Shown piece by piece: positions 13,877-16,920 of a stretch of 64,000 nt of DNA. The DNA comes from Xanthomonas sp. CFBP 8443. GTDB lineage: Bacteria; Pseudomonadota; Gammaproteobacteria; Xanthomonadales; Xanthomonadaceae. Each line of letters starts with the position of its first letter. Position 1 is the first letter of the stretch. The DNA is taken from contig NZ_CP102592.1 in assembly GCF_025666195.1 (NCBI RefSeq), positions 1,178,001 through 1,242,000 on the forward strand, written 5' to 3'. A program made the translations under genes and the position numbers. Under the pieces are notes generated by a model. That model was not told where the DNA came from. It did not search any database and saw only the letters and a list, made by a program, of their open reading frames with translations.

Positions 13877-14677
13877 TCAGGCGCTTGCCGGCACGTTGGC
13901 CAGGCGCACGAAATCGGCCACTTCCAACTGCTCGGCGCGCGCGTCCGGGCGCACCCCGGCGGCCTCGAACTGGGCGGCATCGCAGACCCCGCCGAGCGCG
14001 TTGCGCAAGGTCTTGCGGCGCTGCCCGAAAGCCGCGCGGACCACGTCGGCGAAACGCCGCCGATCGCCGATGCCGATGTCCTGCGGCGCGTGCGGCACCA
14101 GCCGCACCACCGCCGAATCCACCTTCGGCGGCGGCCGGAACGCGCCCGGTGGCACCACGAACAGCGAGGTCACCTCGCAGTACGCCTGCAGCATCACGCT
14201 GAGCCGGCCGTAGACCTTGCTGCCTGGCGCGGCCGCCATGCGGTCGACCACTTCCTTCTGCAGCATGAAGTGCATGTCGGCGATCGCCGCGGCGTGGTCC
14301 AGCGCATGGAACAGGATCGGCGAGGAGATGTTGTAGGGCAGGTTGCCGACCAGGCGGATCTGCCCGGCGCTGCCAGCCAGTTCGGTGAAGTCCACCGACA
14401 GCACGTCGCGGTTGAGGATGGTCAGTTCGCCGACTCCTTCCGCCGCCGCGGTCAGCGGCGCGATCAGGTCGCGGTCGAACTCGATCACGGTCAGGCGGCC
14501 GTGGCGGCGCAGCAGCGGGAAGGTGATCGCGCCCTGGCCGGGACCGATCTCGACCAGCAGGTCGTCCGGCTTGGGGTTTACCGCGCGGACGATGCTGTCG
14601 ATGTAGTCGCGGTCGCTGAGGAAATGCTGGCCAAGCGATTTCTTGGCCGGGGCGCTGAAGCCGGAATAGGAAGTCAT
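13877..14677 (-). CDS. rsmA: 16S rRNA (adenine1518/1519-N6) dimethyltransferase
   Basis: KsgA/RsmA, 266 residues; dimethylates two adjacent adenines in helix 45 of 16S rRNA as a late ribosome assembly checkpoint. Visible motifs are KKSLGQHFLSD near 12-22, the SAM site VEIGPGQGAIT, acidic residue FDRD, and catalytic NLPYNIS. The C-terminal domain contains FGQRRKTLRNAL. The gene normally follows pdxA directly. Here an IS110 element lies 64 bases upstream in the same orientation, so expression may rely on the IS or on a local promoter. Confidence 0.97.
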   Translation of the reverse strand: MTSYSGFSAPAKKSLGQHFLSDRDYIDSIVRAVNPKPDDLLVEIGPGQGAITFPLLRRHGRLTVIEFDRDLIAPLTAAAEGVGELTILNRDVLSVDFTELAGSAGQIRLVGNLPYNISSPILFHALDHAAAIADMHFMLQKEVVDRMAAAPGSKVYGRLSVMLQAYCEVTSLFVVPPGAFRPPPKVDSAVVRLVPHAPQDIGIGDRRRFADVVRAAFGQRRKTLRNALGGVCDAAQFEAAGVRPDARAEQLEVADFVRLANVPASA

Positions 14678-14740
14678 GCGGGCATCTTATCGGGATGAGG
14701 CCAGGATGGCGCGCGGCGCAGTCCCTGTAGGAGTCAACTG

Positions 14741-15670
14741 TCATGCAGAAGCGATCTCCGGAGGAGCGTAAGGCGCCTGGTCTCGGGCAATGGCATTGAG
14801 CCATCGCAGGTACTTGTGCATGCACGCGACAATGGCGACCTTGGCGGGTTTGCCTGCGGCGGTCAGGCGGGCGTAGGTGTGTGACAGCGGGGAGCCGGTG
14901 CGGATGGAGGCCCACGTGGCCATGTACAGCACTCGTCGCACGTCGGCGCGTCCGCCCTGGATGCGGCGTTGGCCGCGCCAGCGGCCGCTATCGCGATTGA
15001 ACGGCGCCAGCCCGACCAAGGCGATGATCTTGCGCGGATGCACGGTGCCCAGCTCGGGGAGCCGGGCTGCCAGGGTGGCGCGCAGGATCGGGCCAAGCCC
15101 AGGCAATTTGGGCAGGCTGGAGCAGGCAGCCCCCGCCTGTGCGATCTGCCGGGACACGTTACAGATGCGCTGCTGCAGCAGCGCGATCACCTCGAGCCAT
15201 TGGTCGCGCACCGCCTTGCAGGTCACGTGCTCCATGCAGCGGCGCTGCGCATCGCGCTGGGCGACCAGGGTGCTGCGCAGGTGGAGCAGTTCGCGCAGCG
15301 CCTGCAGCGGCGCAGGGAGCACCGCGGTGGGCTGAGCGTGGATGCACTGGGCCGCCACAGCCAGCAACCGCGCATCCAGAGCATCGGTCTTGGCCTTGAG
15401 TCCCAACGCGTGCGCCAGCGCACGAGGACGCTGGGCAGGCAGCCGGACCGCGGGCAGACCAGCCTGCGTCAGCACCTGCACTATCGCCCGTTCGTAGCCA
15501 CCGCTGGCCTCCAGCACGATCCGCTCGCATCCCAGCAAGGCCAGGCGTTCGGCCAGGCCGGCGTGCCCCTCGGGCGTATTGGCCTGAGTCCAGGTCAGCC
15601 CATCCGGCAAGACGTGAACGACCAGCTCGGCCTTGGAGACATCGATCCCGACAAAGCGCTGCATAGACAT
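14741..15670 (-). CDS. IS110-family DEDD transposase (bridge RNA-guided recombinase type)
   Basis: 309-residue recombinase. The RuvC-like domain has Asp10 (FVGIDVSKAE), Glu54 (VLEASGGYE), Asp96 and Asp99 (KTDALDAR). The C-terminal Tnp domain has the helix-hairpin region LPGLGPILRATLAARLPELG and a conserved serine, Ser228, in FNRDSGRWRG. All catalytic residues are present, so the gene looks functional. The start ATG at 15670 has a second Met two codons later. It is transcribed in the same direction as rsmA, whose start lies 64 bases past its stop. Confidence 0.95.
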   Translation of the reverse strand: MSMQRFVGIDVSKAELVVHVLPDGLTWTQANTPEGHAGLAERLALLGCERIVLEASGGYERAIVQVLTQAGLPAVRLPAQRPRALAHALGLKAKTDALDARLLAVAAQCIHAQPTAVLPAPLQALRELLHLRSTLVAQRDAQRRCMEHVTCKAVRDQWLEVIALLQQRICNVSRQIAQAGAACSSLPKLPGLGPILRATLAARLPELGTVHPRKIIALVGLAPFNRDSGRWRGQRRIQGGRADVRRVLYMATWASIRTGSPLSHTYARLTAAGKPAKVAIVACMHKYLRWLNAIARDQAPYAPPEIASA

Positions 15671-15699
15671 AGGCGTTCTCCGCAGTAAACTCAGGGACG

Positions 15700-15870
15700 A
15701 GAGATCTCCTGCCGATGCCCATGCTTGTAGGTTCGAGCTCGCGGCTCAGGCAACTGTTCGGGCTTGCTGGCAGGAGAAACGGAGTGCGGCGGCCCTGACT
15801 CCTACTCGTGCTCGTGAGGCACTGCGACTTAGCGGCCTGCCGCACTCCGCTCTCACCTCAACGATAGACC
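15700..15870 (-). ncRNA. Candidate bridge RNA of the IS110 element
   Basis: The non-coding end upstream of the transposase folds, on the minus strand, into two hairpins. Hairpin 1 has a perfect 11-bp stem (15839-15849 with 15780-15790). Its loop carries GCCGCT (15836-15831) and GTAGGAG (15805-15799), matching the left and right sides of the REP target around a CT core. Hairpin 2 has a perfect 9-bp stem (15769-15777 with 15705-15713). Its loop carries ACAGTTG (15757-15751) and ACAAG (15728-15724), matching the element's own ends beside the core. Order and strand follow the IS621 bridge RNA scheme. End positions are estimates. Confidence 0.8.
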
Positions 15871-15883
15871 TGCGTAAGACACA

Positions 15884-15949
15884 AGCGGCTTTAGCCGCGA
15901 CCGGGCTTCACCGGTAACGCTCGGTCGCGGCTGAAGCCGCTCCTACAGG
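15884..15949. repeat. Larger part of a REPIN split by the IS110 element
   Basis: The remainder of the left REP (CGGCTTTAGCCGCGACCG) and the complete right REP (CGGTCGCGGCTGAAGCCG then CTCCTAC). The missing first ten bases lie at 14724-14733 on the other side of the element. The right arm contains the pdxA stop codon (15943-15945). Confidence 0.9.
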
Positions 15950-16920
15950 AGCTGCTTGCGCGCGGCCAGTTGCGCGCACAGCGCGACCGCGGCGAACAGG
16001 CTGGACGGATCGGCGACGCCGCGCCCGGCCAGTTCCAGCGCGGTGCCGTGGTCGACCGCCACGCGCGGGTAGGGCAGGCCCAGGGTCAGGTTCACCGCCT
16101 GCTCGAAGCCGCTGTACTTGAGCACCGGCAGGCCCTGGTCGTGATACATCGCCAGCACCGTGTCGACGCCGGTCAGTTTCTGCGGCAGGAACGCGGTGTC
16201 GGCCGGCAGCGGGCCGAGCAGGCGCATGCCTTCGCCGCGCAAGGCGGCGAGCACCGGTGCCATCACCTCGATCTCCTCGCGGCCCAGATGGCCGTCTTCG
16301 CCGGCGTGCGGATTCAGTCCGAGCACTGCGATGACCGGCTCGGCGATGCCGAATTCGCTGCGCAGCGCGGCGTGGACGATGCGCAGGCAGCGCTCCAGCA
16401 ACGCGGGCGTCAGTGCATCGGCGACCGCGCGCAACGGCAGATGGGTGGTGGCCAGGGCCACGCGCACGATGTCGTTGGCGAGCATCATCACCACCTCGCG
16501 CCCGGCATGGCGGGCGAGCAGCTCGGTGGTGCCGGTGTAGGCGATGCCGCCGTCGTTGATCGCCGCCTTGTGCACCGGGCCGGTGACCAGGCCGGCCAGT
16601 TCGCCGCGCAGGCAGGCGTCGGCGGCCTGGGTCAGCGCGCCGATCACCGCGACGGCATTGGCCGGCTCGGTTTGGCCGAAACGGCTGGGCACGGCGTTGC
16701 CGACCGCGCGCAGGCGCAGGTCGCCGGGGGCGATGGCAGGGGCGGATTCGGGCAGCAGCTGCAGCGGCAGCGACAGCGCCGCAGCGGCGGCGCGCAAGGT
16801 GTCGGGATCGGCGAAGGCCAGCAGCTGGCAGTCGCGTCGCGGCTGTTGGGCCAGCCGCACGCACAGTTCCGGGCCGATCCCGGCCGGCTCGCCCGGCACC
16901 AGCGCGAGCGAGGGCAGCAC
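15943..16920 (-). CDS. pdxA: 4-hydroxythreonine-4-phosphate dehydrogenase
   Basis: NAD-dependent enzyme of pyridoxal phosphate biosynthesis, 325 residues. The start is GTG at 16920, giving MLPSLALVPGEPAGIGPELC, the typical N-terminus. Metal and substrate elements include TGPVHKAAINDGG, YTGTTELLA, LNPHAGEDGHLG, MYHDQGLPVLKY and VDHGTALELAG. It follows surA with only three bases between the surA stop and this start. Its stop lies within a REPIN arm, and the IS110 element begins 58 bases beyond. Confidence 0.96.
   Translation of the reverse strand: MLPSLALVPGEPAGIGPELCVRLAQQPRRDCQLLAFADPDTLRAAAAALSLPLQLLPESAPAIAPGDLRLRAVGNAVPSRFGQTEPANAVAVIGALTQAADACLRGELAGLVTGPVHKAAINDGGIAYTGTTELLARHAGREVVMMLANDIVRVALATTHLPLRAVADALTPALLERCLRIVHAALRSEFGIAEPVIAVLGLNPHAGEDGHLGREEIEVMAPVLAALRGEGMRLLGPLPADTAFLPQKLTGVDTVLAMYHDQGLPVLKYSGFEQAVNLTLGLPYPRVAVDHGTALELAGRGVADPSSLFAAVALCAQLAARKQLL

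Follow-up and report, generated by a model that had tools for sequence, protein, structure and literature searches.

A predicted bridge RNA in an IS110-group element inserted at REP sequences of Xanthomonas, with a putative antisense RNA of the sX15 type

The locus considered here lies in a window of 64,000 nucleotides (the whole stretch of DNA that was analysed) from Xanthomonas sp. CFBP 8443, and it raises the question of how an insertion sequence might come to recognise REP sequences, and what part in this might be played by either strand of the non-coding end upstream of its transposase gene. The reading favoured here, with a probability of roughly 0.85, is that this IS110-group element, itself inserted at a REP, encodes a predicted bridge RNA in which the guides AAGUCGC and GUAGGAG would be directed to the REP and the guides ACAGUUG and ACAAG to the element's own ends, and that an antisense RNA of the sX15 type would be made from the opposite strand. 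What supports this is evidence at the level of sequence, namely the element ends with their CT core, the REP sites, the catalytic residues of the recombinase, compensatory changes in the stems, and guides that appear to change together with targets and ends. Relative to an earlier note made on this DNA, what is new is a corrected assignment for the putative left target guide (AAGUCGC), together with a match to sX15 and a promoter-like site on the plus strand, both of which that note had missed. Coordinates of all the features discussed are collected in Table 1.

Table 1 Positions, within the window, of the element and of its predicted RNA, promoter and protein features.
Feature	Position	Strand	Remark
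IS110-group insertion sequence, 1150 bp between two CT cores	14734..15883	-	copies and ends compared
Left-end CT core (plus strand: AG)	15884..15885	-	
Right-end CT core (plus strand: AG)	14732..14733	-	
Interrupted REP, left half (palindrome side)	15886..15902	+	uninterrupted in relatives
Interrupted REP, right half (CCTGTAGG head)	14724..14731	+	
IS110 recombinase, 309 aa	14741..15670	-	Pfam PF01548 and PF02371
Predicted bridge RNA	15699..15855	-	ends inferred from junction -10 and closing helix
Closing helix, 5' arm GAGAG	15850..15854	-	
Stem 1, 5' arm	15839..15849	-	pairs with 15780-15790
Left target guide AAGUCGC (corrected)	15824..15830	-	adjoins inner hairpin
Inner hairpin GTGC...GCAC	15808..15822	-	separates the two target guides
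Right target guide GUAGGAG	15799..15805	-	
Stem 1, 3' arm	15780..15790	-	
Stem 2, 5' arm	15769..15777	-	pairs with 15705-15713
Left donor guide ACAGUUG	15751..15757	-	follows element end across relatives
Right donor guide ACAAG	15724..15728	-	follows element end across relatives
Stem 2, 3' arm	15705..15713	-	
Closing helix, 3' arm CUCUC	15699..15703	-	
TATCGT, -10 of predicted circle-junction promoter	15861..15866	-	
TTGACT, -35 of predicted junction promoter	14732..14737	-	after end joining, 17-nt spacing
Sigma70-like antisense promoter-like site TAGACA-16-TAAACT	15664..15691	+	over transposase start codon
Rfam sX15 (RF02234) match, antisense to predicted bridge RNA	15696..15862	+	whole-length, 45.8 bits, E 1.6e-5

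The genome (5,238,480 bases in one contig) contains five copies of the element that show no differences over 1150 bases, which suggests that it has been mobile recently. All five lie at a REP with a CT core at both ends, bearing out the REP specificity already proposed in the earlier note; the left flank reads AAGCCG-CT in four cases and AAGTCG-CT in one, while the right flank is CT-CCTACA in all five. For the copy in the window the target reads AAAGCCG-CT-CCTACAGG and the element ends read ACAGTTGA-CT and CT-TGTGTCTT. Exact sites of the form GAAGCCGCTCCTAC occur 341 times in this genome and those of the form GAAGTCGCTCCTAC 21 times, as compared with none for the reversed control patterns. Within the element there are 213 bases between the left core and the start codon and 7 between the stop codon and the right core, so that the longer non-coding end sits upstream of the gene, as is the layout of the IS110 group. 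A 72.4% relative occurs on an X. sacchari plasmid. In the REP doublet next to the element (15882-15933) there is a sub-threshold match to Twister-sister (20.7 bits, the cut-off being 34), which is probably due to chance, and an Rfam match to Ms_AS-1 (21.9 bits, cut-off 37) was likewise taken as chance.

The only gene of the element is that of the recombinase, placed downstream of the hairpins as an IS110 transposase in the earlier note, with which both the Pfam domains and the reading frame agree. It has the features of the group, that is, a DEDD recombinase with both Pfam domains and the conserved serine: when the protein is aligned with IS621, D10, E54, D96, D99 and S228 fall on its catalytic residues, as numbered in PMC11208158 (excerpt). 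Two relatives were found in the PDB, IS621 (E 4.2e-20) and ISCro4 (E 5.5e-22).

Upstream of the gene, the two perfect hairpins that had been reported were confirmed letter by letter, these being stem 1 (CGGAGTGCGGC/GCCGCACTCCG, 11 bp) and stem 2 (TCTCCTGCC/GGCAGGAGA, 9 bp). A structure alignment (A1) was made of 26 relatives, one per loop type and covering 26 of the 38 types, and its consensus has 29 pairs, of which 15 are changed on both sides; apart from the closing helix GAGAG/CUCUC, it comprises the target stem, in which one base is bulged, and a pair of helices in the donor loop. Paired cells make up 98.1% of 751 (82.7% in shuffles) and the covariation score is 0.425 (0.142 when shuffled). 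Four of the five structure measures lay beyond all shuffles (0/500 as high), while the fifth, the number of further pair types, showed no excess (28 as against 27.1; 187/500). Sliding the columns of A1 by 1-3 reduces pairing to 32-53%. Five of the six pairs of the closing helix are invariant and therefore uninformative, and only the sixth varies. A covariance model, R1, matches the predicted bridge RNA at 15684-15866 on the minus strand with 160.7 bits, a figure to be read in the light of the window's copy being among the R1 training rows.

As to which strand forms this structure, the non-Watson-Crick cells in the stems are 51 times G.U in the minus-strand reading and 6 times A.C (which would be G.U on the other strand), or 27 as against 6 when one fixed column is removed; this asymmetry makes the minus strand, which is the sense strand of the gene, look like the structured RNA. 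Among the non-Watson-Crick cells between guides and DNA, 34 are sense G.U, 5 are antisense G.U and 51 are neither. The promoters predicted for the minus strand would be created at the junction of the joined ends, where TTGACT-17-TATCGT is found in 53 of 96 copies, and where TTGACT or TTGCTT at 17-nt spacing is found in 95 of the 96 (the exception, L129, having an altered end); the first letter of the -10 is C rather than T in 10 copies.

On the plus strand, a scan of the integrated element over 14600-16000 gave a single promoter-like site, TAGACA-16-TAAACT, as against 0.1 expected, and no terminator beyond chance (1 found, 0.6 expected). The site ends at the start of the sX15 match. A motif TANNNT ending 6-11 nt before the antisense GAGAG is present in 36 of 36 distinct sequences, compared with 7.6% when letters are shuffled, although these upstream sequences share descent and so are not independent; alternatively, the conservation may reflect a signal in the sense leader. 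GAGAG would be the start of the predicted RNA on either strand (sense at 15850-15854, antisense at 15699-15703); these two places are the arms of the invariant closing helix, and the repeat may thus serve the start sites in addition to pairing.

In Rfam, sX15 (RF02234) is a small RNA of Xanthomonadaceae, described there only as an sRNA. The match in the window falls under the curated cut-off (45.8 as against 55 bits), but relatives score up to 132.8 bits, and matches above the cut-off occur in 15 of 149 family genomes and 2 of 20 genus genomes. Taken across the genus there are 65 matches in 12 of the 20 genomes, the same 12 that carry the transposase. Of these, 61 adjoin a transposase start, all 61 antisense and none sense; among the other four, two lie beside a transposase found in two aligned pieces, likewise in the antisense orientation. 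Outside the genus 35 of 42 rows were checked (those left out being six further rows from G124 and a weak sense-strand row from G010), with 18 antisense beside a transposase, none sense, and 17 without a transposase at that threshold; six of these 17 have a transposase piece antisense nearby, a further six lie at the end of a contig, and the other five have none attached (L015, L019, L020, L034, L037). The weak match on the sense strand in G010 has 35.8 bits, as against 120.2 bits for the antisense match that it overlaps at the same place. In L019 (1501-1671, 91 bits) and L020 (1501-1669, 84 bits) the sX15 match has no transposase found alongside, and these two are possibly relics or non-autonomous copies.

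One might on these grounds suppose that the plus-strand RNA, sX15 itself, is the functional guide, given that pairing with the target strands can be read from either strand, that the Rfam model lies on the plus strand, and that the promoter-like site of the integrated element is there as well. This is, nevertheless, very unlikely: the G.U asymmetry, both in the guides (34 as against 5) and in the stems (51 as against 6), favours the minus strand, the junction promoter points along the minus strand, and IS621 has the same order of guides on the transposase strand, which is the strand on which its RNA was sequenced (PMC11208160, excerpt).

For the favoured reading of a minus-strand bridge RNA, the guides were compared with the sites that they are proposed to recognise. 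Covariation within the genus alone is too narrow to be of use, most copies sharing one REP, and family-wide loci were therefore taken. Transposase relatives occur in 12 of 20 genus genomes, and 40 of 297 family genomes have a match; in the family seven candidates were scored in each genome, and the places taken are thus not a full census. In all, 118 loci were oriented, comprising the five own copies, 56 of 56 other listed places in the genus, 55 of 56 places outside it (G053:C5 being left out) and two named loci. Of these, 98 could be parsed, the 20 that were dropped being L115, L116, L163, L165, L166, L171, L173-L180, L189, L194, L195, L206, L207 and L209. The parsed loci gave 38 loop types, of which 34 have both flanks (those wanting one being L111, L164, L199 and L204) and 16 have distinct guides. 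One AmX2 copy was entered twice, as L039 and L078, and counts out of 96 or 98 copies include both entries. Guides were scored over seven positions with G.U allowed, own targets being compared with shuffled ones in 10000 shuffles.

For the 16 distinct guides, the position of AAGUCGC scored 6.44 (4.76 for shuffled targets) and that of the right guide 6.88 (5.10), in each case out of 7 and with 0/10000 shuffles as high; with Watson-Crick pairs only the figures are 6.00 against 4.00 and 6.75 against 4.64, again 0/10000 for both, while the wrong-strand control for the right guide gave 3.24 of 7. It should be borne in mind that the loop types are related by descent, so that such shuffle figures overstate significance and are not strict probabilities. 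Both target guides thus track their own sites in the comparison that had been suggested, over 16 guide pairs that include REP, attC and other targets. In an example of the attC type, UAACGCCU goes with the target TAACGC-CT and AAUUCAG with CT-GAATT; further examples are UAACACCU with TAACAC-CT (L196), CGUGGAG with CT-CCACG (L185) and GUCGCU with GTCGCT (L155). The weak fits are, for the left guide, L159 (4 of 7), L161 and L185 (each 5 of 7) and, for the right guide, L167 (5 of 7).

These results divide the assignment that had earlier been made for loop 1, where GCCGCT (15831-15836) and GTAGGAG (15799-15805) were named as the target guides. The letters of both are present and the second is upheld, but the first fares badly: its position scores 4.69 as against 4.63 of 7 for shuffled targets, with 4120/10000 shuffles as high, or 3.81 as against 3.51 (563/10000) for Watson-Crick pairs only, both for the 16 distinct guides. 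A bridge RNA having GCCGCT as its left target guide could nonetheless point to six letters that match its own target and, when all 34 types are taken with Watson-Crick pairs only, to a score reached by just 18/10000 shuffles (3.94 as against 3.64; with G.U allowed, 5.00 as against 4.90 and 1415/10000). Attempts to hold to it encounter loops, both of the attC type and in L155, that have no match at that place, and in IS621 the left guide instead adjoins the inner hairpin. A sharper distinction comes from the copies themselves. Those with the guide AAGUCGC are at GCCGCT in 8 cases (7 without the duplicate entry) and at GTCGCT in 6, making 14, or 13 without the duplicate; those with AGCCGC are at GCCGCT in 41 cases and at ACCGCT in one, which says little alone, since all nine genomes in which sites were counted have few GTCGC sites. 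In G134, where the guide is AAGUCGC, five of the six copies are at GTCGC even though free exact 14-mers number 8 for GTCGC and 230 for GCCGC (p 2.5e-7); two of these five sites depart from the exact 14-mer at other positions. In the genome of the window the same preference is not significant (1/5 copies, p 0.26). AAGUCGC would account for the preference in G134, pairing through a U.G wobble at the more common site, and GCCGCT would not, as it cannot explain the five GTCGC sites; GCCGCT as left guide is accordingly held to be most improbable. A point against the favoured reading is that the T of the core faces A in the guide.

Turning to the other loop, ACAGTTG and ACAAG had been taken to be the donor guides, and both do track the element ends in relatives, as judged by pair counts. 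For the left guide and end, 107 copies give ACAGTTG with ACAGTTG 98 times, ACAGTTG with ACAGTTA once, and ACGGTTA with ACGGTTA 8 times; for the right, 98 copies give ACAAG with CTTGT 70 times and ATAAG with CTTAT 26 times, GTAAG and CTAAG each occurring once with CTTAT. The guides thus follow both target and donor, as a bridge RNA's would, the left guide being directed to the bottom strand and the right guide to the top.

An alternative in which the hairpins serve the transposase message as a regulatory leader and do nothing else, as has been proposed for ISPpu9, can draw on the fact that they lie within the leader, and that in ISPpu9 the structure of the leader affects translation (PMC8450116, excerpt). 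It does not, however, lead one to expect loops that track the sequences of target and donor, and as a complete account it is barely credible, whereas a leader role in addition to the guide role would be compatible with the favoured reading. 

The element of the window lies between genes that, from reading their frames, we take to be pdxA and rsmA. In the six relatives examined this interval has no element in any case, three having the pre-insertion REP, two a REP with another palindrome, and one an altered right side. With this, the idea that the element is a dead relic whose copies came about through duplication or gene conversion, which would fit with no movement having been observed here, is reduced to a next to negligible likelihood by an intact frame and catalytic residues, by five copies whose flanks are all different, each being a cut REP, and by the interval lacking the element in all six of those relatives.

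If the favoured reading of a mobile, RNA-guided element is correct, the two strands might be brought together as follows. On excision, TTGA and the CT core would meet the left end and so form the promoter TTGACT-17-TATCGT, from which first the bridge RNA and next the transposase would be transcribed; together with this RNA, the recombinase would join the circle and a REP at CT. In an integrated copy the resident antisense promoter would make an RNA of the sX15 type that is complementary to the bridge RNA along its full length; this antisense RNA could act on both the bridge RNA and the transposase message and would tune them, most simply by holding both down. That sX15 should in this sense be a natural anti-bridge RNA in the IS110 elements of this clade, with the antisense promoter resident when the element is integrated and the guide promoter present only in the circle, so that integrated copies would oppose the guide and excision would release it, is rated a little short of an even chance. 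In the open-licence literature searched, no paper was found linking sX15 or any antisense RNA to a bridge RNA.

The set of loci assembled here amounts to a natural series of bridge-RNA guides and targets from a single bacterial family. The series spans variants of REP, attC and further sites, and in it a change of as little as one guide base goes with a change in the genomic targets. For the sRNA family sX15 an identity is proposed, namely that of antisense partner at an IS110 guide locus, along with a circuit in which circles would supply the guide RNA and integrated copies the antisense RNA. Antisense control of this natural kind, if true, would be relevant to builders of bridge-recombinase tools.

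Among the closest known systems is IS621, whose recombinase is homologous and has the same DEDD and serine residues, and which has in common with the element of the window an RNA in the upstream end, a CT core, a REP target and a circle-junction promoter (here predicted). The order of parts is also alike, namely a stem with a bulged base, CCG, the left guide, the inner hairpin, the right guide and then the donor loop; in the left end of IS621 (L212) one reads the stem, a bulged A, CCGT, the left guide ATCGGGCCT and then the inner hairpin, a place for the left guide that agrees with the numbering in PMC11208158 (excerpt). If positions are numbered from the first one of the aligned region, A28, G33 and 35-43 here would correspond by our own mapping to A43, G48 and 50-58 of IS621 in that numbering. 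The proposal in the earlier note of an IS110 bridge RNA, whose guides have the order and the strand of those in IS621, is supported. There are differences as well: the REP and the guides are not those of IS621, and whereas the RNA of IS621 has a 5' stem-loop before its two loops (PMC11208160, excerpt), a GAGAG/CUCUC helix here closes both. In two IS621 loci (L212, L213) a search with R1 up to E 10 gave no match, a comparison made in one direction only and with a model trained on Xanthomonadaceae. R1 does match upstream of plasmid IS110 genes of Rhizobium (43.9 bits; L215 556-699) and Asticcacaulis (19.3 bits; L216 539-685), so that this type of RNA extends beyond Xanthomonadaceae. Judged by these comparisons of sequence, the RNA of the window probably works like that of IS621 and yet appears to be a different structural variant. 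An antisense RNA is predicted for the element here, and none is mentioned for IS621 in the excerpts of PMC11208160 and PMC11208158.

For that feature a counterpart is ISPpu9, an IS110-family element of Pseudomonas putida that is likewise inserted at REP with an AG/CT core, and described in 2021, before the bridge RNA papers of 2024 (PMC8450116, excerpt); the likeness is one of layout as described there. Its Asr9 is an RNA of ~180 nt antisense to the transposase leader, with a -35 within the first transposase codons, and some copies also have a sense RNA, Ssr9, downstream (same excerpt). The promoter-like site at 15664-15691 with its conserved -10 would give a similar layout, predicted from sequence here whereas Asr9 itself was measured. 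Overproduction of Asr9 raised both transposase expression and transposition of ISPpu9 (PMC8450116, excerpt), which argues against a simple off switch.

Finally, in the seekRNA elements ISPa11, ISKpn4 and ISPst6 (IS1111 type) and ISEc21 (IS110 type), the non-coding region yields an RNA with matches to both strands of the target, as is proposed here, with REP the target of ISPa11 and attC that of ISKpn4 and ISPst6 (PMC11187229, excerpt). The REP and attC elements in that excerpt belong to the IS1111 type, in which the RNA lies downstream of its gene, whereas in the element of the window it is upstream, as in the IS110 type. A group of IS110 relatives with another upstream end (L173-L180, L194, L195) has the donor guide ACGGTTA, identical to the end ACGGTTA-CT, and left flanks that vary by copy. 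In contrast to the attC-targeting elements named in that excerpt, IS110-group elements with the RNA upstream and matching guides were found here at integron attC-like GCCTAAC...GTTAGGC sites (L172, L181-L184, L186-L188, L190-L193, L196-L198, L205 and L208). Set beside all of these, the RNA of the window would belong to the IS110 kind of bridge RNA, and would be set apart within it by its closing helix and by a conserved antisense side corresponding to sX15.
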